Position numbers and translations under genes: made by a program
The notes under the pieces: model-generated
What the model was told of the DNA's origin: nothing
Database searches by the model: none
The model's input: the letters and a program-made list of their open reading frames with translations, nothing else
In this document: in pieces, positions 9,984-24,003 of the stretch
How the letters are laid out: each line of letters opens with the position of its first letter
How positions within the stretch are numbered: the first letter of the stretch is position 1
NCBI RefSeq assembly: GCF_002224645.1
Contig: NZ_CP022121.1
Coordinates: 3,316,501 to 3,380,500 of the forward strand
Direction: 5' to 3'
DNA: 64,000 bases
DNA from: Dehalobacterium formicoaceticum
GTDB lineage: Bacteria > Bacillota > Dehalobacteriia > Dehalobacteriales > Dehalobacteriaceae

Positions 9984-12461
9984 TTATTTCAGCATCTGCT
10001 GATTCCGGAAAAAATCTTGCCAGGGATCATGGTCATTACCGCCAATCCTGGCAAGCGCCTCCACCATATCAATACTGTCCGGGGCAATGGTGTCAAGTTC
10101 CTCCCACCCAATCGGCATGGATACCCTGGCCCCTCTTCTCGCCCTTAAGGAATAGGGAGCAATACTTGTTGCACCTCTGCCGTTTCGCATCCAGTCAATA
10201 AATATTTTGTCTTTTCGCTTCGCCTTTCTCACATTACCGGTGTAGCGATCAGGCCACTTCTGCTCCATCACTAGGGCAACACGTCTTGCAAAATCATGAA
10301 ATATCTCCCATGAGACGGATGGTTTTAGTGGGACGACCACATGATAGCCTTTACCGCCGCTGGTCTTGAGATAAGATTCCAGGGAAAGATCCGTGAGAAT
10401 GCTTTTAAGATCCCGCACCCCCTGGCGTACCCTGCCAAGATCCATCCCTTCATCGGGATCCAGATCAAATACCATCAGATCAGGCTTTTCCAGTTCATCT
10501 ACACGGCTTCCCCAGGTGTGAAATTCCAAAGTGCCCATTTGTGCTTCCGAGATTAACCCCAATTTGTTTTCAATATAGAAATATTCCTCCTCTTCTCCGC
10601 TGCCGGTGGCAACAGTTATCGTGACGATGCCCCGGCTGTCCGGGCCGGGATGCTTTTTATAGAAGCATGATTGCAAGACACCCTTGGGACAGCGTACGAT
10701 ACTAAGGATCCTGTGCTCCACATAGGGCAGCATACGCTCCGCTGCCTTTTCATAATAACGAACCACCTCCCCTTTTGTAATTTCAGGGTCGTCAAACACT
10801 ACCTTATTCGGGTTTGTAATTTTGATTCCTTCGATGAAAATTGTGTTGTCCTTTACTGTCATGGTCCCCTCCGATTCTTTGACCACTTTAACCTGTTTGA
10901 CTGCTTTAACCGGTGCTTCTCTTTTTATATCTTCAGGATTTTTATCTTTGCGCAAGCCTTTAAAGCTGGCATGCCTTAAAAGCTGCTCCGCTGTCCATTC
11001 ACTAAATTTGATTTCCGCAATCAGCCTGGGTTCAAGCCAGGTTATTTTTTCATTGGACTTAGGGCTAGGTGCCTCTTTGAAAGGCGGCTCCGCCTGATGT
11101 AAGCCTTTAAATTCCCTCTCCAATATTCCCCTGGTGCGTTCACTAAAACCCGTGCCGGCACGTCCGCAATAAATGAGCTCTGCCCCTTCAAAAACACCAA
11201 GGAGCAATGCGCTGATCCCGCCGGTTTTTTTGTCCGTCAGAGTATATCCACCGATGACAAATTCCTGTCTTTGATCACATTTCAACTTGATCCAGTCACC
11301 GTTCCTTCTTCCACTGTATCGGGAATCCACTTTTTTGCCGATGATGCCCTCCATCCCAGCCTCACAAGCGGCAAGTAAGCTTTCCTTGCCTTTTCCGATA
11401 ACATGCCTGCTATAATAAAGGTTTTTTGGTGCATCCTTCATTAATGCTTCCAGGATTTCTTTTCTTTCGGTCAGAGGGCGTCCCCGAAGATCCGCGCCGT
11501 CCAGGGCAAGGAGATCAAAGACAATATAAGTCAGGTTTTGTTCCTCGCTATTTTTCAAGTAGTTTTGCAGCGCCTGAAAATTCGTCTTGCCCTCCGGGTC
11601 CGTAACAGTCATTTCCCCATCCAAAATCATCGCCCTGCCGGCAGCAAAATCAATCAGGGCAGACGCCACATCTGAAAACCGCCTGGTATAATCATGACCG
11701 TTCCTGGTGATCAATCGAACACTGTTGCCTTCCACAAAGGCCAAGATCCGATAGCCGTCATATTTCATCTCATAGAGCCAATCCTCACCATCAGCGGGCA
11801 CCTTATTAACCAATTTTGCCAGTTGAACATCCGCCTGATAAAAAGGATTCCTTGTTATTTTTTCATCTGCACCATCTTCAATTTCCTGCATTGTGCGTCC
11901 CGTCCGAATGCTGGTGGTAAATTCTGCAATCCCGGTTTCATTATTGGCATATTCATCTTTTTCTTTCAACAAAAGCCAGTTATCCTTTGTCTCCCCAGCT
12001 TTCAATTTCAGTCGGACCAAAGCCCACCTGCCCTTCAGCCGTCTTCCCTTGAGCATAAATTTTAGGCTGCCTTCCCGCAGCCCTTCTTCCACATTGCCGT
12101 GAGGTTCCCAAAAACCTTCATCCCAGAGCATGACCACGCCGCCCCCATATTCCCCTTTAGGAATCGTCCCTTCAAAGTTCCGGTATTCAAGGGGATGATC
12201 CTCAACCTGAACCGCAAGCCTTTTATCATGAGACTGATAGGAAGGGCCCTTGGGTACTGCCCAGCTCATTAAAGCTCCCTTCCATTCCAGCCGCAAATCA
12301 TAGTGGTCGTTACGGGCGATATGGTGTTGGATGACAAATCTTAGCTGCTCTTCAGGATCTTCAGGATCTTCAGGATCTTCATGATCTTCATTTTTCCCTT
12401 CCGGTTCCAGTGTTCTGTTAAAATTTCTTTTTTGATGATACTTCCTGAGCCGTCCCGTCAT
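9984..12461 (-). CDS. ligD: LigD: phosphoesterase-ligase-polymerase for NHEJ
   Basis: Multifunctional non-homologous end-joining enzyme, 825 residues. Order: 3'-phosphoesterase (about 40-190; QHHIARNDHYDLRLE), ATP-dependent ligase (about 210-515; adenylated lysine in EMKYDGYRIL is K233), then an AEP-type polymerase (about 550-825; metal-binding FDLDPDEG). This is the Pseudomonas order, not the mycobacterial POL-PE-LIG order. Residues 24-38 are an acidic EDP repeat coded by a short 9-bp tandem repeat, so its length may vary. The ATG follows the ku stop by 4 nt without a strong ribosome site, suggesting translational coupling. Confidence 0.95.
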   Translation of the reverse strand: MTGRLRKYHQKRNFNRTLEPEGKNEDHEDPEDPEDPEEQLRFVIQHHIARNDHYDLRLEWKGALMSWAVPKGPSYQSHDKRLAVQVEDHPLEYRNFEGTIPKGEYGGGVVMLWDEGFWEPHGNVEEGLREGSLKFMLKGRRLKGRWALVRLKLKAGETKDNWLLLKEKDEYANNETGIAEFTTSIRTGRTMQEIEDGADEKITRNPFYQADVQLAKLVNKVPADGEDWLYEMKYDGYRILAFVEGNSVRLITRNGHDYTRRFSDVASALIDFAAGRAMILDGEMTVTDPEGKTNFQALQNYLKNSEEQNLTYIVFDLLALDGADLRGRPLTERKEILEALMKDAPKNLYYSRHVIGKGKESLLAACEAGMEGIIGKKVDSRYSGRRNGDWIKLKCDQRQEFVIGGYTLTDKKTGGISALLLGVFEGAELIYCGRAGTGFSERTRGILEREFKGLHQAEPPFKEAPSPKSNEKITWLEPRLIAEIKFSEWTAEQLLRHASFKGLRKDKNPEDIKREAPVKAVKQVKVVKESEGTMTVKDNTIFIEGIKITNPNKVVFDDPEITKGEVVRYYEKAAERMLPYVEHRILSIVRCPKGVLQSCFYKKHPGPDSRGIVTITVATGSGEEEEYFYIENKLGLISEAQMGTLEFHTWGSRVDELEKPDLMVFDLDPDEGMDLGRVRQGVRDLKSILTDLSLESYLKTSGGKGYHVVVPLKPSVSWEIFHDFARRVALVMEQKWPDRYTGNVRKAKRKDKIFIDWMRNGRGATSIAPYSLRARRGARVSMPIGWEELDTIAPDSIDMVEALARIGGNDHDPWQDFFRNQQMLK

Positions 12462-12465
12462 AATA

Positions 12466-13239
12466 TTACGCTAATTCCCTGTTTTTTTGGGCTTTATCAA
12501 CACTGGCTCTAAGGGCCTCCATCAGATCGATCACTTTTCCGGTAGTGCCGGCTTCCGCCGCAACGACCTCCTTGCCGGAAATTTTTGACTCGATGAGCAT
12601 GCGCAGTTTTTCCTGGTATTCGTCTTTATATTGAGCGGCATCAAAGGGCGTGTCCATGGCATTGATCAGGGTTTTAGCCATATTCTGTTCCTGTTCGGAT
12701 ACTTCCGGCTTCGCATACTGTTTTTGCAGCTCTTTAATGTCATCGGCGTAGAACATGGTGGAAATGAGGATCCCGTCCTCCCGGGGAATAATCGCCATCA
12801 GTGTATCCTTTGTGCCCATAACGGTTTTACCAATGGCAATCTTCTGCTCATTCATCAACGCGGAGCGCAGCAGTTCGAAGGCTTTTTCCCCCCCAGCTTC
12901 GGGAGCAGCCTGGTAGGTTTTGTCGTAGTAAACAGGTGAAATCTGATTCAATTGGGCAAAATGCAGGATCTGAATGGATTTTTCCTTTTCCGTCTTGATC
13001 TTTTCAATTTCTTCTTCCGTGACCACGACATACTTGCCGTCATCGTATTCATAACCTTTGACAATATCCTTCGCCGTAATTTCCTTGCCGCAATGGGCGC
13101 AGGTTTTCTTGTAACGGATACGGCCGTTGTCTTCCTTATGGAGCTGATTGAAATGGATATCATTGTCTTGTGTGGCTGTATACATGGCGATGGGAATGGC
13201 AACCATACCGAAAGTAATAACCGACTTACGGGATATCAA
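12466..13239 (-). CDS. ku: Ku, DNA-end-binding protein
   Basis: Bacterial Ku homodimer subunit that binds broken DNA ends and recruits LigD. I start at the TTG at 13239 (257 residues), which has GGAGG 8 nt upstream; the in-frame GTG three codons earlier overlaps that site. The N-terminus ISRKSVITFGMVAIPIAMY fits the family. It contains a CAHCGKE pair of cysteines around residue 50 and the conserved DIVKGYE motif. The Lys/Ala-rich C-terminal tail is short. ku-ligD form a two-gene operon. A near-palindrome at ~13330-13351 lies in its upstream region. Confidence 0.93.
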   Translation of the reverse strand: MISRKSVITFGMVAIPIAMYTATQDNDIHFNQLHKEDNGRIRYKKTCAHCGKEITAKDIVKGYEYDDGKYVVVTEEEIEKIKTEKEKSIQILHFAQLNQISPVYYDKTYQAAPEAGGEKAFELLRSALMNEQKIAIGKTVMGTKDTLMAIIPREDGILISTMFYADDIKELQKQYAKPEVSEQEQNMAKTLINAMDTPFDAAQYKDEYQEKLRMLIESKISGKEVVAAEAGTTGKVIDLMEALRASVDKAQKNRELA

Positions 13240-13388
13240 AATAAACACCTCCGATGTTATTATTGAATTTCTCTATGCTTCCGATGATCTTTCGTATGTT
13301 TTTTCACTCTTTTTTATTTTCCCTATAAAAATGATGAATATTCTTCATCATTTAAAAATCGCCAAAATGCAATCCCTATTATAAATCT

Positions 13389-13624: not shown

Positions 13625-13897
13625 GATTACTTCAGATAAGCAAAGTGGATGTGCCCAAATGAAAAGATCATCAGATCTGAGTAAAAAAGCATGGAAGGTG
13701 AGCAAGTCCGGGTAAGCAGCAAGAAACGGAATAAAAGGTGAGATAAAAAAGGCTGGGCAAGACTGAAAGGTTGATGAATGAGGAAAAAAAAGCAGAAGGC
13801 AGATTGAGGAGAAAAGTCGATAAAGGTTCGTTGGAGCTTACGTTTTATAAGCCACCGGCTGATGTGGAAAGATGCGATCAGCCGGTGGTTTTTGCTG
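13625..13897 (+). repeat. 5'-truncated copy of the 21159-21552 ncRNA element
   Basis: About 273 bp, about 96% identical by eye to 21281-21552, in the same orientation. It retains the 3' two thirds including the terminator hairpin but lacks the promoter and first ~120 nt. Its left edge abuts the cupredoxin remnant. With the full copy it forms direct repeats on either side of the radical SAM/subtilase operon. Confidence 0.9.
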
Positions 13898-13965
13898 TTT
13901 TTATGATACCGCTCGGGAAAGTTCGGCCATAGCCGCTTCTTTTAAGCCTTATGGGCAAAATAAAA

Positions 13966-14030: not shown

Positions 14031-14303
14031 TCACTCTGTACACTTTATTGGGTATTTTTTGTCGGGCTCATTCAAAAATCCAAACTCATTAGGAATTAAT
14101 TTTTCCCCATCCCGGCTAAAAAATACAATCTTTAAGAGATCCTTTATTTGCTCACTGTAGAATTCTCCGAGGAGTGTATCAGGATTTGAGTCTTGATTTT
14201 TCGGTTCGATTTTAAAACGAAATACATAATCATCCTGGCACTCCGGCTTTCCCTGATGATTCATATTCATAATATCGTTTTTTTCAGGTGTATTTTTTAT
14301 CAT
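14031..14303 (-). CDS. Small protein of unknown function, last gene of the radical SAM operon
   Basis: 90 residues from the ATG at 14303, with AAAGGTG 6 nt upstream; a GTG three codons earlier overlaps that site. The sequence is polar and charged, has no membrane segment or signal peptide, and has two Cys (one in PECQDD, one near the end in KCTE). I recognise no family. It follows the subtilase stop by 19 nt and is followed by a terminator, so it is clearly the distal gene of the operon. It could be an inhibitor/chaperone of the protease or a substrate, but nothing in the sequence decides this. Confidence 0.6.
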   Translation of the reverse strand: MIKNTPEKNDIMNMNHQGKPECQDDYVFRFKIEPKNQDSNPDTLLGEFYSEQIKDLLKIVFFSRDGEKLIPNEFGFLNEPDKKYPIKCTE

Positions 14304-14322
14304 TATTTTCACCTTTACAATT

Positions 14323-15996
14323 TTATATTGTGTAGTTCAGGATAACGGATGATCCATTGGAGTCATTAATAGTGATCCTTACATTGCTGCCCAAAACCCA
14401 ATTCCCCGACAACTGATTAATTTCCATGCAGGCCCTATTACAGATCTCCTTGGCGAAAAGGTCAGTGTCAATATTATCGAAGGTATCATCAGCTATTGTA
14501 ATATTAATTTTAGGGCCGCCATGTTGATCTGGAATATCCGTATCAGTTGGTTCAGTGATAATTTCGTTATTCTTCCTGATCTCATCCATGGCTTTTCCCG
14601 CATCTAACTTACCGGCACCAAGATACTGCCAATTACCAGGATTTTGCTCTGAGATAGGTACCGCCGTTCTGACCAGGATGTCGGAAATACTCTCAATATC
14701 CAAGGCAGGATTCACGGATAACATTAAGGCAATTACTCCGGCTACGTGGGGTGCTGCGAAAGAGGTCCCGGCGACAAAAGCAGTGCTGTTGTTTAAATCA
14801 GCACAATAGATATCATCATCGTCAAAAGGCTGTCCGGCTCCTCCGGGAGCGCTGATCGTAACTGTAGGTGAGTAATTGGAATAATCTGCCTTCCGACCTG
14901 ATGGCGCTAAAGCTGCCACTGAAAATACCCCATTAATGGTTTTGCTATAATCCGAGGGATAATGAGCCCCTGAAGTGTTCTCATTTCCAGCAGATGTAAC
15001 AAATATTACTCCGGCAGCCGCTGCCTCCTGAATTGCTTCCCTGATAATCCTAACATCGCCGGAAGTCTTCCAGCTACAATTTGCGACCACCCTTTTTACC
15101 GGTTGGACATCTAATAGTCTGGCCTCCATGATACTTTTCAGGTAGTAAATCGCTTCAGCCCTCTGGTGATAATACTGTGCATTAAGGTTTACAGACAGGG
15201 ATATAATCCGTGACAGGGGTGATATTCCCTGCAAGTCATCCCTTTGTCCTGTCAAAATACTAAGTATCTGGGTGCTATGTGAGGAAAATATTGAGTTATC
15301 TGCAAAGTCCCAGTCGTCAGAAAGACCCTGTTGAAAAGATTGTTTAAGAGATGGATGACTAATATCCGGCTTCCCATCTATTACAGCAATTAGAATTTCC
15401 GGGTTGCCCTTCGTTATGGTCCAGGCATCATTGATATTAATACTGTTAAGATTCCATCGCACATCGTTAGTCGAAATTTCTTCCGCGTCATTTACCCCAT
15501 AATAAACAGGTTCAATGTAATCTATTTCCGGGATATCTTCTAAATTTTCAGAAGCTGATGTCAGTTCCACGCCCTCCGGCAGCTCGAGGATCAGCCAATT
15601 TCCAAAACGGCTTTGCTCGGCTATGCTATACGTGCCGGCCAATTTATCTATCAGCGCATCTTTAAGACCCGGGTGGTAGGCGACAAGCAAGCGGTTAGGA
15701 ACAACTAACCGTCTAAAACCTTCTTCGTCTTCGAATACAGGTATGACCGCTTCTACTGTTTGATCTTCATTAAGTTCATCTAATATTTCACTCATGGTAT
15801 GCGTTTTTTCTGCTTGTTCATCAAAAGTGAAAATTAACAAATTATCTTTTGGGACCCATTTTGAATGTTTAAATCTTTCTATTTCACTAAGGTTTCTTAC
15901 TTGTTTTTCTCCCTCATAACCTTCCTTGAACTTTATCAAATACTCACCTTTAACAGGTGTTAAAACGGTTTTATTTTTTTTATTCATAAATTGCAT
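14323..15996 (-). CDS. Subtilase (S8 family) peptidase, no signal peptide
   Basis: 557-residue serine protease. An N-terminal propeptide-like region (about 15-165) is followed by the S8 catalytic domain: Asp207 in AVIDGKPD, His240 in SSHSTQILSIL, oxyanion Asn338 in SAGNEN, and Ser412 in GTSFAAPHVAG. The contexts around Asp and His deviate from the usual D-T/S-G and H-G-T-H. A C-terminal extension (about 470-557) of unknown fold follows. No signal peptide is visible, so it probably acts in the cytosol or leaves by another route. The ATG follows GAGGG. It lies between the short peptide gene and the 90-aa gene; by position it is a candidate leader peptidase for that peptide. Confidence 0.88.
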   Translation of the reverse strand: MQFMNKKNKTVLTPVKGEYLIKFKEGYEGEKQVRNLSEIERFKHSKWVPKDNLLIFTFDEQAEKTHTMSEILDELNEDQTVEAVIPVFEDEEGFRRLVVPNRLLVAYHPGLKDALIDKLAGTYSIAEQSRFGNWLILELPEGVELTSASENLEDIPEIDYIEPVYYGVNDAEEISTNDVRWNLNSININDAWTITKGNPEILIAVIDGKPDISHPSLKQSFQQGLSDDWDFADNSIFSSHSTQILSILTGQRDDLQGISPLSRIISLSVNLNAQYYHQRAEAIYYLKSIMEARLLDVQPVKRVVANCSWKTSGDVRIIREAIQEAAAAGVIFVTSAGNENTSGAHYPSDYSKTINGVFSVAALAPSGRKADYSNYSPTVTISAPGGAGQPFDDDDIYCADLNNSTAFVAGTSFAAPHVAGVIALMLSVNPALDIESISDILVRTAVPISEQNPGNWQYLGAGKLDAGKAMDEIRKNNEIITEPTDTDIPDQHGGPKINITIADDTFDNIDTDLFAKEICNRACMEINQLSGNWVLGSNVRITINDSNGSSVILNYTI

Positions 15997-16128
15997 TTTT
16001 TATCCCTCACTTATTTACGGCAACTTCTTGCCATGGGATGTTAAAATAGAAAAAAGGAATATAATCCGATAGCATTCAGGAAACTAATTAATTACTAGAG
16101 TTTTAGCTGTTGATTCTTTCTTTACCTA

Positions 16129-16335
16129 TTAACCCCATGAAAATGAAACATGGATTGCTGCGGGATTATTTAGTTTAGTACCCAAATCTACCGTTCCAAA
16201 TCTTGTGTTGATTTCCGACATAATAACATCTGAAATAGCTCTGTTGGTTTTCATTGCACTCAAAAGTTCTACCTGAGCCTTAGCCATAGGTACAAGCCTT
16301 TCTTCTTCAGAACCGCCAAATCTTGTTACCGGCAT
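16129..16335 (-). CDS. 68-residue peptide, candidate precursor for the radical SAM enzymes
   Basis: Starts at the ATG at 16335 with GAAGGG 6 nt upstream; the in-frame ATG at 16353 has no ribosome site. The first ~45 residues are charged and likely helical (GGSEEERLVPMAKAQVELLS), the rest is Gly/Asn/Thr-rich and ends HVSFSWG. There is no Cys. Size, position directly after a radical SAM gene and before a protease, and a leader-like N-terminus with an aromatic C-terminus suggest a ribosomally made peptide substrate. That role is inference; it could also be a small accessory or binding protein. Confidence 0.6.
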   Translation of the reverse strand: MPVTRFGGSEEERLVPMAKAQVELLSAMKTNRAISDVIMSEINTRFGTVDLGTKLNNPAAIHVSFSWG

Positions 16336-16366
16336 TGCTATCCCTTCTTTCATTTTTATTGGTCTG

Positions 16367-17437
16367 CTATCGGACTATATTGTTATCGATAAAAGCAATC
16401 CGGGCGTGTTTCTGCCTGGTTTGCTCTATCAAATTGAGCATAATCATTTCACATTGTTCATGTTCAATGAATTTCTGGGGCATTGCAAACAGGTTTAGTT
16501 TCAGGAAACGTATCTGATTGCCATTACTAAGGTCATTGGGGAATGGCGTCAATACCTTACGGGGAATTTTCTCAATCCGCCTGATCCCTGCTGTACCGAA
16601 TTCCGCAGCGTATTGCGGGTCTAAACCGTCGCACCAATTTCTGGCTACACAAACACCACACTCCCCGGTGTCATCATAAAATCTGGGCCACTTACCGATT
16701 ACACTTTCGCTGGAAAATTGGTTCATGTATTCCGGCAAAAGGCAAAGGGGGGCTTTTTCAACGGTAACTGTTAAACCATTGTTTTCAGCTATTTGCACCG
16801 CTTCTGACAATTGAGGTCGAATTTGATCAAGAGTAGGCACCAGCTCAGGGGAAGACTGAGCATCAACAATCAGTCCAAACTTTATGCGCGGCACACCTTT
16901 ATCAATGGCAAGTTTGGTAATTTCCGAAAGCTCCCTAAGATTATCCGTTGTGATTACAATATTAACCTGACAAGGCATCGCGGCGGAAACAATATGATCC
17001 AAACCCGCTATTAACTCAGCATAACTTCCCTTTACTCCGGTCAACCTGTCATGAACTTCAGCGGAAAGACCGAGCAGCGAGGTCCGGATATAACATTCCC
17101 CTCCGGTAATAGCCGCAACTTTATCGGTGAATTCTCTTTTGGAAAACAACCGGCCGTTAGTGGCGATGGAGCATTTTAACCTTTTAGACTGAATGTATTG
17201 CAATAGGTCGAAAAAATGTTGGTATAAAGTTGGTTCCCCTCCAAACAAATCCACTTTTGAACCGGCAGGAAGCTTATCAATCAATTCCAGCGCCGTTTCA
17301 TAAGGAAATGAAAACTGTCCGTGAATCTCATCAACCATACAAAACCTGCACCTGTTATTGCATCTGTCTGTTAAGTGCAAGATCAACAAATTGTCCTTTT
17401 CCAAATATTTGTTTATTAAATCTGTGCTATGCTCCAA
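16367..17437 (-). CDS. Radical SAM protein with SPASM-like C-terminal cysteines
   Basis: 356 residues, starting at a TTG (17437) with AAGGGTG 7 nt upstream. CNNRCRFC gives the CxxxCxxC cluster ligands C26, C30, C33; GGEPT (66-70) is the SAM-binding motif. Near the C-terminus, Cys232 (APLCLLPEY) with Cys260, Cys263 and Cys269 (CGVCVARNWC) resemble the auxiliary-cluster ligands of SPASM/twitch peptide-modifying enzymes. It lies 12 nt after the second PDZ radical SAM gene and 31 nt before the short peptide gene. It is the most enzyme-like maturase candidate of the three; the substrate is unknown. Confidence 0.85.
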   Translation of the reverse strand: MEHSTDLINKYLEKDNLLILHLTDRCNNRCRFCMVDEIHGQFSFPYETALELIDKLPAGSKVDLFGGEPTLYQHFFDLLQYIQSKRLKCSIATNGRLFSKREFTDKVAAITGGECYIRTSLLGLSAEVHDRLTGVKGSYAELIAGLDHIVSAAMPCQVNIVITTDNLRELSEITKLAIDKGVPRIKFGLIVDAQSSPELVPTLDQIRPQLSEAVQIAENNGLTVTVEKAPLCLLPEYMNQFSSESVIGKWPRFYDDTGECGVCVARNWCDGLDPQYAAEFGTAGIRRIEKIPRKVLTPFPNDLSNGNQIRFLKLNLFAMPQKFIEHEQCEMIMLNLIEQTRQKHARIAFIDNNIVR

Positions 17438-17449
17438 ATTTGATCACCC

Positions 17450-19015
17450 TTAGATTGTAATTGTTGTGTTGTCGGCCAGGATCACCGGAATTCCGGTGAC
17501 AAGCTCAATGCTGCTGTAAGAAATACCTAGCAGATCATTATTTTTATTTGGACTGAAGGAATTGGGCAATACGATCAGATCAGGCTTTATTCCCTGTTTC
17601 TGCTGAAAATCATAGATCGCCTGCAAGTAATCAGAACAGGTATATAAATCACCAAGAATGATGTTACCTCCCCAAAATCTATGCTCCGGCACCCAGAGAT
17701 AAAGATTGGTATCGCCGAGCAAATGTTCCAGTTCCGGTATTGACTCAAAAAGGGCAGCCACCAAAGGTTCCATGATTGCTGAGGTCATCAGCAGGACGTG
17801 TTTGGCCTTGGTATCAGCGATGCGTTTCAATAGATCCTGCAGCCAGGCAGGGTCAAAATCATCAATCAGCACAATGCCGAAAGGATAAGCCTGGGATAAA
17901 GGATACCCTATGGGCCGATAGGGATAGCGGCTTTCCTTCGTACCTTTTTCGATCAGTTCTGCCCCTAATAATTGGCCATTTCTTTCAAAAGTAATCTGCA
18001 ATCTGGGATTATTATGATATTGAACCAGCAATTTACCGGCGGCAACCCGGGTAAAAACATCTTCTCCGTTAATTGATTTAATCAGATCACCGAATTGCAG
18101 ACCAGCCTGCTCTGCCGGAGACTCCCTGATTACGCCCGCTACTTCCGGGACAAGGGCCTGGGCATGATAAAGGCTGGGTAATACCAATATCGGAGTCTTA
18201 ATTTCGTTACGTAAAGGCAACACCTCCGATAAGACCTTATCCCATGCAGCCTGTGAATTAAACAGCATATCTTTAGAAAAATATCGGGTATACCCCGGCA
18301 AAGTAATCCGAATCGCACGCGCCAGATTTTGGTCCAAATAACGAATGGTCTCGATCATTTCACTTTTTTCAATATCCGGCCAGGCAACAATAGTTCCCAC
18401 AAAGGGCAGATCATATGACTTGAATTTTTCGATCATCTTGATGGAGTTTTCACTATTCCGATCCCCCATAATCTTCCTTCGCCCCTCCGGGTCGGAAGAA
18501 TTAAGGGAGATACATAGATTAATCGGCACCATTTCAGCCAGTTGTTCCAATATATCCGTGTTGAAATAAGAGCCATTGGTCGTTAATTGGATCTCTACCT
18601 CCCTGTCGGCCGCTCTAACCATTCTTAAAATAGGAAGCAGCTCCTTGTTGGTAAAGGGTTCTTTGTACAACCGTGTTGTAAAAAGAGGCAACCCTTTTTG
18701 AACATCGCGGCGGTAATAATTGATGCGTGTGGCAGCCTCCTGAACAGATAAACAAGTCTTCTCAAAAGGCAAAGGATTTCCCGCTTCATAACAAAATTTA
18801 CAGCGCAGATTACAATAACCGGAAGGAGAACCGAGGCTATCAAAAATGTTATTATATTTTTCGAATGACCAGTCAGACAAGTTTTTCAGAACGAAACTGT
18901 CAGGTTCGATCACCCGGCCTTCTTCTTCCAACTGCACAAGTGATAATAGTGACTCCAGTCTTGATTTTAAATATCTAATGAAAGGATGCAGGTAGTTTTT
19001 CTCTTCAACACTCAT
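17450..19015 (-). CDS. Radical SAM protein with internal PDZ domain (paralogue 2)
   Basis: 521 residues. Radical SAM domain with YCNLRCKFC (C68, C72, C75), followed by LTTNGSY and a LCISLNSSD strand motif; then a PDZ-like domain (about 290-352; VAGVIRESPAEQAGLQFGD); then a C-terminal domain (about 365-521) recalling the DUF512 part of COG1625 proteins. In COG1625 the PDZ is N-terminal, so the order here is unusual. Its ATG is 2 nt after the stop of paralogue 1, with GGGAGGA as ribosome site. It shares architecture and many local motifs with the 19018-20568 gene. PDZ domains bind peptide C-termini, which would suit a peptide substrate. Confidence 0.85.
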   Translation of the reverse strand: MSVEEKNYLHPFIRYLKSRLESLLSLVQLEEEGRVIEPDSFVLKNLSDWSFEKYNNIFDSLGSPSGYCNLRCKFCYEAGNPLPFEKTCLSVQEAATRINYYRRDVQKGLPLFTTRLYKEPFTNKELLPILRMVRAADREVEIQLTTNGSYFNTDILEQLAEMVPINLCISLNSSDPEGRRKIMGDRNSENSIKMIEKFKSYDLPFVGTIVAWPDIEKSEMIETIRYLDQNLARAIRITLPGYTRYFSKDMLFNSQAAWDKVLSEVLPLRNEIKTPILVLPSLYHAQALVPEVAGVIRESPAEQAGLQFGDLIKSINGEDVFTRVAAGKLLVQYHNNPRLQITFERNGQLLGAELIEKGTKESRYPYRPIGYPLSQAYPFGIVLIDDFDPAWLQDLLKRIADTKAKHVLLMTSAIMEPLVAALFESIPELEHLLGDTNLYLWVPEHRFWGGNIILGDLYTCSDYLQAIYDFQQKQGIKPDLIVLPNSFSPNKNNDLLGISYSSIELVTGIPVILADNTTITI

Positions 19016-19017
19016 TT

Positions 19018-20568
19018 TTAGTCCTCCCTGCCGTAAATGTAGTGCCAGGGAATCAATTCCACTGGAATGCCTGTCCGGGTCTCGATCTCGAAAACAGATC
19101 GGCCCTGAAAATCAATGCCCCAGGAAGAGCCAAAACTATCCGGGATCAGTATTAAATCAGGTCTTTCGTTAACCCCATCACAAAACTCTAAAAGCGCATT
19201 TTCATAGTCAACCACGAAACGGCTGTCCAATAAGTGGGTATTCCCCTCCATCCAAGTATGATCCAAGGTATCAATCCATAGAAACCTTTCCTGAAAAAAA
19301 TCACGATAGACCGGGATCTGATCGATAACATTTTCTAAAGTTCCGGCGGTTAATGGAGAGCAAAAGAGCAGTACTTTCCGGGCGTCATGCTTTTTGATTA
19401 CGCGAAGAATATTGTCCAGATAATTCAGGTCAAAGTCCGGCAAAAACAGCATGCCGAATCTTTCTCCCGGATGACCCAAATCCGGGCTAAATGGATAAGA
19501 CTGATGGCAAACCAGGTTAAAGGTTAGCAGCTTTTCCCCTCTTTTGATCTTTACTGTCAGGTTATTAAGCTGATCTAAAGCACCAGAGCTAAAAAAGTTT
19601 CTAATATCAACCCGGGTTGGCAGGATCCTGTCATTAATCTCCATAACCATATCGCCGGCCATTATCCCTGCCACCTGCGCCGGGGAATTAAGGATCACCC
19701 CATCAACTATTGGCAGCAGCGGGACTCTCGCGTATTGAACAGGCTCAATCCAAATAGGAACATTAAATTGTCCTTTGATTGAATTAACATAATCACATGT
19801 ACCTTGCCAAAAATCATTAAGATCTGCGGTCGGAGGTTTGGGCATAAATTTATGGATCAAAGGAAGTCTGATTCTAATCCCATAAGGTTTATAAAGGCAA
19901 ATATCCTCAATGCTTTTATTGAGTTCAGCGAAATCTACCTTTGGCCAGACAACAATACTGCCGATAAAGGGGATGTTAAACTTATTTAACAAACTCATGC
20001 TATTAATAGTTAATTCTGAGTCCTCCCGGAGTCCCATCAGGGATTTACGGTTTTCCGAAGTAGTAGAATTTATTGAAAGCTTGAGGAGTATTGGTTTAAG
20101 GTTTGCCAATTCCTCAATGATCTCAGGGGTAAGAAGCGAAACGTTAGTAGTAAGAATGAACAATTCCGAAGCGTTTTTTTGACGTGCATTTTTAAGGATA
20201 CGAATGGCATCCCTGTTTAATAATGTTTCCATATGAGGACGAGCTGAGGGGAATAAACAGCGGTTGTTTTGCTGATCAAAATACTGTAACCTGGTTAAAG
20301 CCTCCGGTAATGATAAGAAAGAATAGTCCCGTTCGAAAGGGAGAGATCTTTCCATGCAGAAAACACACTTGGCATTGCAAACACCCGAAAGAGGACCTAA
20401 AGCTTCCATGTTGGTCTGGGCGCAACCAGTTTGCCAGTGGGCTAAATTCCGCAAACGGAACCCATCAACTTTTATTGGTTGTCCCTTATGTTCCAATTCA
20501 ACAAGGGACAATATTCTCTCAATTTCACTTTTTATGGCCTCAATACGAGGTTCAACAATTTCATACAT
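19018..20568 (-). CDS. Radical SAM protein with internal PDZ domain (paralogue 1), first gene of operon
   Basis: 516 residues from the ATG at 20568 (AGGTGA 8 nt upstream; longer in-frame starts exist at 20574 and 20652 but are less likely). VCNAKCVFC supplies C64, C68, C71. The PDZ-like domain (about 286-352; VDGVILNSPAQVAGIMAGD) and the C-terminal DUF512-like domain follow, as in paralogue 2. Both start with a helical region and the R/K-NL-x-W motif before the cluster. The two are probably a heteromeric pair from an old duplication. A DNA fragment very similar to its Cys-motif region occurs twice at 53.7 and 54.2 kb. Confidence 0.85.
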   Translation of the reverse strand: MYEIVEPRIEAIKSEIERILSLVELEHKGQPIKVDGFRLRNLAHWQTGCAQTNMEALGPLSGVCNAKCVFCMERSLPFERDYSFLSLPEALTRLQYFDQQNNRCLFPSARPHMETLLNRDAIRILKNARQKNASELFILTTNVSLLTPEIIEELANLKPILLKLSINSTTSENRKSLMGLREDSELTINSMSLLNKFNIPFIGSIVVWPKVDFAELNKSIEDICLYKPYGIRIRLPLIHKFMPKPPTADLNDFWQGTCDYVNSIKGQFNVPIWIEPVQYARVPLLPIVDGVILNSPAQVAGIMAGDMVMEINDRILPTRVDIRNFFSSGALDQLNNLTVKIKRGEKLLTFNLVCHQSYPFSPDLGHPGERFGMLFLPDFDLNYLDNILRVIKKHDARKVLLFCSPLTAGTLENVIDQIPVYRDFFQERFLWIDTLDHTWMEGNTHLLDSRFVVDYENALLEFCDGVNERPDLILIPDSFGSSWGIDFQGRSVFEIETRTGIPVELIPWHYIYGRED

Positions 20569-21158: not shown

Positions 21159-21552
21159 AAGCTCCAAGGAATACCTAAGGCGAAACACCTCAGGAGCCGG
21201 AAGCAGAAACGAAACATGAAAACCGATCAGACAGCTAAAGAATCTTAAGATTCAAGGTCCCTTGAAAGGAAACAGAAACTGATTGCTTCAGATAAGCAAA
21301 GTGGAAGTGCCCAAATGAAAAGATCATCAGATCTGAGTAAAAAAGCATGGAAGGTGCGCAAGTCCGGGTAAGCAGCAAGAAACGGAATAACAGGTGAGAT
21401 AAAAAAGGCTGGGCAAGACTGAAAGGTTGATGAATGGGGAAACAAAAGCAGAAGGCAGATTGAGGAGAAAAGTCGATAAAGGTTCGTTGGAGCTTACGTT
21501 TTATAAGCCACCGGCTGATGTGGAAGATGAAATCAGCCGGTGGCTTTTGCTG
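21159..21552 (+). ncRNA. Candidate structured noncoding RNA, ~390 nt
   Basis: It starts 6-8 nt after a near-perfect -10 box and ends at a strong terminator. The RNA strand is purine-rich with interspersed hairpins: GCTCC ... GGAGC at its 5' end (about 21161-21196), GAATCTTAAGATTC (about 21240), AAGGTCCCTT next to it, and GCTTCAGATAAGC near 21284. No reading frame on this strand looks coding. A second, 5'-truncated copy (13625-13897) is ~96% identical. It does not look like tmRNA, RNase P RNA or 6S RNA. It could be an orphan large RNA of the HEARO/GOLLD/OLE sort or something new; I cannot name it. Confidence 0.65.
21506..21548 (+). terminator. Rho-independent terminator of the ncRNA
   Basis: AGCCACCGGCTGAT pairs perfectly with ATCAGCCGGTGGCT over 14 bp, followed by TTT. 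The same stem is kept, with compensating loop changes, in the 13.6-kb copy. Confidence 0.85.
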
Positions 21553-21576
21553 TCCATGCCAAAAATGGCAAAGAAC

Positions 21577-23842: not shown

Positions 23843-23859
23843 AAAGAATCAGACTATGA

Positions 23860-23943
23860 CTCCCTACGGCGGCATTATCCGCATCAGGTTCCAGGGTCGA
23901 AGTTCAATGACTTCCTCTCAGCCTGCAATACAAGCTCCCCTTA
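23860..23943 (-). promoter_or_regulatory. TPP riboswitch (THI element)
   Basis: On the minus strand: GGGGAGC, then GGCTGAGAGGA, ACCCTGGAACCTGATGC and GATAATGCCGCCGTAGGGA. These are the conserved P2/P3 and P4/P5 cores of the thiamine-pyrophosphate aptamer in the right order. It controls thiW-thiM-thiE. Confidence 0.95.
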
Positions 23944-24003
23944 TTTAAGTATATTATACTGCACTGTTTTTAAAAAAGCAAGAAAGACGGTTCATAATCA
24001 GCA

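Follow-up and report, generated by a model that had tools for sequence, protein, structure and literature searches.

Radical S-adenosylmethionine (SAM) proteins with a DUF512 domain, a family of ~6000 sequences, were recognized as cobalamin enzymes only in 2024 (PMC11659888, PMC13331322). They bind cobalamin and support the formation of methylcobalamin from SAM, and their substrates are unknown (PMC11659888); class 2, in which DUF512 proteins stand with Mmp10, includes one enzyme that modifies a large protein (PMC13331322). In the literature we searched, no paper links DUF512 enzymes to peptide modification. Here we analyze a six-gene operon within a 64,000-nucleotide stretch of Dehalobacterium formicoaceticum (contig NZ_CP022121.1, positions 3,316,501 to 3,380,500; hereafter the window), in which two proteins of this type (rS1 and rS2) are encoded with a third radical SAM protein (rS3), a 68-residue candidate peptide, an S8 subtilase and a small partner protein (x93). 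We favor the view that the operon specifies a pathway for a ribosomally synthesized and post-translationally modified peptide (RiPP), or for a peptide-derived cofactor, in which the peptide would be the substrate, modified by the radical SAM proteins with help from x93 and trimmed by the subtilase.

Pathways that act on short peptides offer further points of comparison. The layout of the quinohemoprotein amine dehydrogenase (Qhp) system (PMC7876137) comprises a radical SAM protein (QhpD), a short peptide and a subtilisin-like protease (QhpE). QhpE and the cyanobactin protease PatA resemble the protease of the operon as S8 subtilases acting on a short modified peptide, which is here a candidate. 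Proteusins and other RiPPs with NHLP leaders share with the operon the combination of a precursor and cobalamin radical SAM methylases (in their case the C-methyltransferases of TIGR03975), and the His-Xaa-Ser system (HxsABCD) provides, in HxsC, a distant relative of rS3. Family searches assigned none of the six genes to a characterized pathway, which bears out an earlier remark, in a preliminary description of this DNA, that no described class has such a composition.

DUF512-type radical SAM proteins rS1 and rS2

The six open reading frames (ORFs) lie in the same direction on the minus strand (Table 1), and all of them, together with the gaps between them (2, 12, 31, 132 and 19 nucleotides, the last measured from the ATG at 14303), were reproduced as the preliminary description had reported. 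Sequences that could plausibly serve as ribosome-binding sites lie ahead of rS1, rS2, the peptide, the subtilase and x93, whose ATG at 14303 follows the Shine-Dalgarno-like AAAGGTG. Pfam recognized a radical SAM domain in rS1, rS2 and rS3 (E values 1e-13 to 1e-18) and a PDZ domain in rS1 and rS2, which the preliminary description had called paralogous radical SAM-PDZ proteins; both carry the CX3CX2C motif. The preliminary description did not mention the DUF512-type C-terminal domain of these proteins, the conservation of the last small gene or the repeats that flank the operon.

The DUF512 assignment was obtained at the level of the family. Among 177,635 PDB sequences, a profile built from 13 radical SAM-PDZ members ranked the DUF512 structures 9cg2 (4e-26) and 9cg1 (3e-17) first, and the C-terminal domain was matched separately as well. 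The same two structures ranked first, weakly (0.017 and 0.049), with a profile of the five C-termini of the operon-type proteins defined below, three of which are matched by Pfam DUF512 (best 4.8e-6). A Foldseek search with an AlphaFold model of rS2 returned 9cg1 as the top match, with 9cg2 and Mmp10 also listed; because this model is of low confidence (predicted template modeling score, pTM, 0.38), we take the result as supportive.

As in the class 2 proteins csDUF512 (9cg1), pfDUF512 (9cg2) and Mmp10, the radical SAM domain of rS1 and rS2 is followed by a C-terminal domain of the cobalamin-binding type, and csDUF512 also has a PDZ domain. In rS1 and rS2, however, the PDZ domain lies between the radical SAM and cobalamin domains and not at the N-terminus; they also differ from described DUF512 proteins in carrying an N-terminal extension related to x93 and in their setting, a peptide-modification-type operon. 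Three residues of the cobalamin site could be placed by alignment: the aromatic residue after the last cluster cysteine (Y47 in pfDUF512), the lower-axial leucine and a threonine near the cobalamin tail. All are kept in rS2 (Tyr, Leu and Thr), whereas rS1 has Met, Ser and Cys at these positions, with EGNT in place of GGNI and an intact CX3CX2C motif. Judged by these aligned residues, rS2 looks cobalamin-competent and rS1 cobalamin-deficient.

The operon-type clade and its gene neighborhoods

The nearest common homologues of rS1 and rS2 are stand-alone radical SAM-PDZ genes whose last domain resembles DUF512. They were present in 8 other matching genomes among the first 61 searched (L015-L022), where their neighbors, judged by eye, were mostly tsaD-, 5-formyltetrahydrofolate cyclo-ligase- or groEL/groES-like; no subtilase or peptide homologue lay beside them in those eight genomes. 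In the genome of the window, a search at E 1e-20 found no such gene other than rS1 and rS2 themselves. When 368 genomes were searched with rS2, 31 had matches at E up to 1e-42. Only the matches in genomes G150, G188 and G291 aligned from residue 7–9 and thus included the N-terminal extension, the rest starting at residue 64–66; a further member, from Sinorhizobium sojae, came from a plasmid search. Together with rS1 and rS2, these four proteins form one clade with 100/100 support, apart from the stand-alone genes. Since G150 and G188 additionally carry a copy of the stand-alone type, the operon-type protein is an extra paralogue.

These searches are a sample, comprising 1999 genome searches over overlapping sets drawn mostly from one phylum. 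Profile searches of 110 and 80 genomes from two other phyla, run without a positive control, returned nothing, and scans of genome contigs and viral contigs with single proteins gave no usable relatives. A scan with a two-row profile was set aside, its matches being mostly unrelated radical SAM proteins. At one of them, in a Desantisbacteria metagenome-assembled genome (L026:9596-13222), a PqqD-like protein, a radical SAM-DUF512 protein without PDZ, a radical SAM/SPASM protein and an HPr-kinase-like protein are adjacent, which puts another DUF512 protein in a context resembling peptide modification.

All four of the other clade members found lie in RiPP-like clusters. In G150 (L059), the radical SAM-PDZ gene is accompanied by an x93 homologue, a 79-residue peptide of the Os1348/NHLP clan (37 bits against a cut-off of 40, E 2.7e-9) and a major facilitator superfamily (MFS) transporter; this compact cluster (L059:11425-11664 and L059:9723-11965) is probably the cleanest member for biochemistry. 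The cluster of G188 (L060) holds an x93 homologue, two proteins resembling radical SAM/SPASM peptide maturases, a B12-type radical SAM protein, TldD/TldE-like proteins and an MFS transporter, with a 42-residue ORF preceded by a Shine-Dalgarno sequence as a candidate peptide only. Its radical SAM-PDZ protein (L060:9502-11205) appears to hold two tandem x93-like N-terminal segments. In G291 (L061), where the radical SAM-PDZ protein is truncated and no clear peptide was seen, an x93 homologue occurs with a RiPP radical SAM C-methyltransferase (TIGR03975, 364.6 bits, above the cut-off) and a divergent radical SAM/SPASM protein. In S. sojae (L034), two B12-type radical SAM proteins, a methyltransferase and an aldo/keto reductase accompany the radical SAM-PDZ gene, and an 80-residue ORF with a Shine-Dalgarno sequence lies immediately upstream, again as a candidate peptide only. 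The S. sojae genes form an island on plasmid pSJ05684b (L034:8997-17928) whose neighboring ORFs look transposase-like by eye.

The preliminary description had read the operon as RiPP-type, and this is supported by the recurrence of the rS1/rS2 clade in RiPP-like clusters of four other genomes; most radical SAM-PDZ homologues are stand-alone and without RiPP context. Its expectation that the peptide and the subtilase would accompany the radical SAM genes across genomes did not hold, both being found only here; the remaining clusters have candidate peptides of their own and differ in their genes for processing or export. With neither the peptide nor this subtilase found elsewhere, the full set of six genes has so far no second example. 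The likeness to proteusin and NHLP-type pathways extends to the relatives, with the Os1348/NHLP-type precursor of L059 and the TIGR03975 enzyme of L061; the peptide of the window does not resemble NHLP precursors, and its cobalamin enzymes are of the DUF512 type, without an N-terminal B12-binding domain.

The neighborhoods also bear on another explanation, in which the radical SAM proteins modify a protein, in the manner of Mmp10, which methylates methyl-coenzyme M reductase at an arginine. The 68-residue ORF would then be a regulator or a chance ORF, and the subtilase would serve processing or quality control. This would agree with the large-protein modifier among class 2 DUF512/Mmp10 enzymes (PMC13331322) and with the housekeeping context in which most PDZ-containing relatives stand alone. 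Against it, the tree separates the operon clade from the stand-alone one, and the neighbors of the operon clade include RiPP maturases, an NHLP-type precursor and TldD-like genes; we consider a protein substrate unlikely.

Homologues of x93, which itself matched no family in Pfam or NCBIfam, are encoded beside the radical SAM-PDZ gene in L059 (E 9e-10), L060 (6e-9) and L061, and in S. sojae the homologue is fused to the N-terminus of the radical SAM protein. A first comparison of x93 with the N-terminus of rS1 and rS2, made with two sequences, was negative. With homologues added, a profile ranking against a background of 2145 ORFs put the clade N-termini first or close to first, and hhalign aligned x93 with the N-terminal extension of rS1 and rS2 at 5e-5, control tiles of the same proteins scoring 0.09 or weaker. 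An AlphaFold model of x93 alone was uninformative (pTM 0.27). We infer a role for x93 in docking or substrate delivery. Beyond this operon, we propose tentatively that the clade represents a new RiPP machinery, in which DUF512-type cobalamin radical SAM proteins with an internal PDZ domain may act as peptide C-methylases and may recognize or receive their precursor through a small x93-type domain, present both as an N-terminal extension and as a separate protein. Such a machinery would recur in clusters scattered over the phylogeny that differ in their precursors and processing enzymes. The operon and its four relatives bring to light a new partner protein and an unusual domain order (radical SAM, PDZ, DUF512), and they place one DUF512 clade in the company of short candidate peptides and of RiPP enzymes already known. 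The question of the DUF512 substrate can therefore be put to a direct test with a specified enzyme and peptide.

Candidate peptide, third radical SAM protein and subtilase

The candidate precursor (MPVTRFGG...NNPAAIHVSFSWG) matched no family in Pfam or NCBIfam. It is encoded on the same strand as its neighbors, between rS3 and the subtilase, in the operon's only gap of coding size, and a good Shine-Dalgarno sequence precedes it; both features count against the protein-substrate explanation, which draws in turn on the peptide being an orphan. ORFs of this length also arise by chance. As the peptide has no relatives, its core could not be defined by conservation. A match in G227 (E 0.04, 26 residues, internal stop) was judged to be due to chance, the C-terminal extension of the subtilase showed no significant similarity to the peptide, and none of the four related clusters has a homologue of it. 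The peptide lacks Cys, has W, F and H in its proposed core and carries an IHVS motif near the C-terminus.

The third radical SAM protein had been described as having SPASM-like cysteines, and, as read from its sequence, rS3 combines CX3CX2C with the auxiliary-cluster motif CX2CX5C. Its best NCBIfam match is HxsC (TIGR03977, E 2e-38), and it is 24–27% identical to distant HxsC homologues. This match, together with the H-V-S of the peptide, would fit a divergent His-Xaa-Ser (HxsABCD) system that modifies the IHVS motif. We regard such a system as highly improbable: rS3 scores 131.8 bits, far below the cut-off of 267.9, no protein of the operon matches HxsB or HxsD, rS1 and rS2 are unrelated to HxsB, and the HxS motif is single, without the repeat.

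The S8 protease had been called free of a signal peptide, in keeping with a non-hydrophobic N-terminus. It has an N-terminal prodomain-like region and a C-terminal extension around a core that is nearest to PatA: the closest PDB match is the PatA cyanobactin protease 4h6w, with which its D/H/S triad aligns and with which it shares the motif V[IL]DG..D..HP. It remains under the family cut-offs (PatA/PatG, 72.9 against 421 bits; QhpE, 32.5 against 165), and no other cyanobactin or Qhp genes were recognized. Among the genomes searched, the protease was found only in the window. A match in Nonomuraea (31.6%) was rejected as a separate subtilase with FG-GAP repeats, blastp of whose locus recognized no radical SAM genes.

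With its radical SAM proteins, short peptide and subtilisin-like protease, the operon shares the Qhp layout, and it might serve a peptide-derived redox cofactor, like pyrroloquinoline quinone (PQQ), mycofactocin or the Qhp subunit, and not a secreted product. The lack of an exporter in the operon would suit a cofactor of this kind, as would the W, F and H of the core, which could take part in cross-links. We nevertheless find it quite improbable, given the low QhpE score of the protease, an rS3 that is not QhpD-like, the lack of dehydrogenase subunits nearby and a peptide without Cys.

For the RiPP-type pathway that we favor, the analysis establishes the structure of the operon, the identity of the domains, the separate clade and its recurrence with x93 and RiPP-type genes; from these we infer a substrate, the chemistry, a part for x93 and a sequence of steps as follows. 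The 68-residue peptide would be the substrate, its leader at the N-terminus and its core toward the C-terminus, near ...NNPAAIHVSFSWG, and x93 probably delivers it to the enzymes or serves as their docking partner. For rS2 we propose a class 2 (DUF512-type) radical SAM methylase that depends on cobalamin, with C-methylation of the core as its probable reaction; rS3, HxsC-like and with its auxiliary cluster, probably carries out another radical modification, for example a cross-link. As rS1 has kept the SAM cluster and lost the cobalamin-site residues, it may perform cobalamin-independent chemistry or help to position the substrate. The cytoplasmic, PatA-like subtilase would then remove the leader.

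Several observations weigh against this pathway. None of the four related clusters has a subtilase, and the peptide is without a convincing homologue in 398 genomes or plasmids. The operon has no exporter gene. Taken alone, rS2 falls below the Pfam DUF512 cut-off, and its assignment depends on the clade profiles and a low-confidence model; rS1 lacks all three cobalamin-site residues. Finally, the likeness of x93 to the N-terminal extension is modest, at E 5e-5 in one profile comparison.

Gene coordinates, flanking repeats and surroundings

Table 1. Genes of the operon and flanking direct repeats, in window coordinates
Feature	Position	Strand	Basis or remark
rS1, radical SAM-PDZ-DUF512-like, 516 aa, N-terminal x93-related extension	19018..20568	-	Pfam PF04055 and PDZ, alignments, tree
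rS2, radical SAM-PDZ-DUF512-like, 521 aa	17450..19015	-	Pfam; profile matches 9cg2/9cg1; Foldseek top match 9cg1 (low-confidence model)
rS3, radical SAM, 356 aa, HxsC-like, TTG start, CX2CX5C motif	16367..17437	-	TIGR03977; distant HxsC homologues
Candidate precursor peptide, 68 aa, C-terminus ...LNNPAAIHVSFSWG	16129..16335	-	Shine-Dalgarno sequence AAAGAAGGG upstream of ATG
S8 subtilase, 557 aa, likely leader peptidase	14323..15996	-	PF00082 E 1e-31; best PDB match 4h6w
x93, 90-aa partner protein (93 aa from GTG 14312)	14031..14303	-	homologues in L059, L060, L061; fused in Sinorhizobium
Direct repeat copy 1, 274 bp	13625..13898		96.35% identical to copy 2
Direct repeat copy 2, 273 bp	21281..21553		operon promoter side, next to thiE-like gene

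Two copies of a direct repeat enclose the operon together with the region upstream of it. The repeat has no Rfam match, and no further copy was found in 864 kb of the genome (the window and another 800 kb, ~23% of the genome). These flanking copies suggest that a module was inserted or duplicated here, which fits the rarity of the operon, and they are possibly the footprint of a recent insertion or of an excisable module. The preliminary description had ended the operon in a terminator; we found no standard intrinsic terminator directly downstream of the last gene on the minus strand, and in the strong hairpin nearby (~13846-13893), which is part of the flanking repeat, it is the plus strand that carries the run of T.

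Genes that look by eye like those for an ATP-dependent ligase of the LigD type and for Ku (non-homologous end joining) adjoin the operon at 9984-13248. On the other side, a thiamine pyrophosphate (TPP) riboswitch (RF00059) at 23843-23951 lies upstream of thiamine-type genes, which directly adjoin the second repeat.

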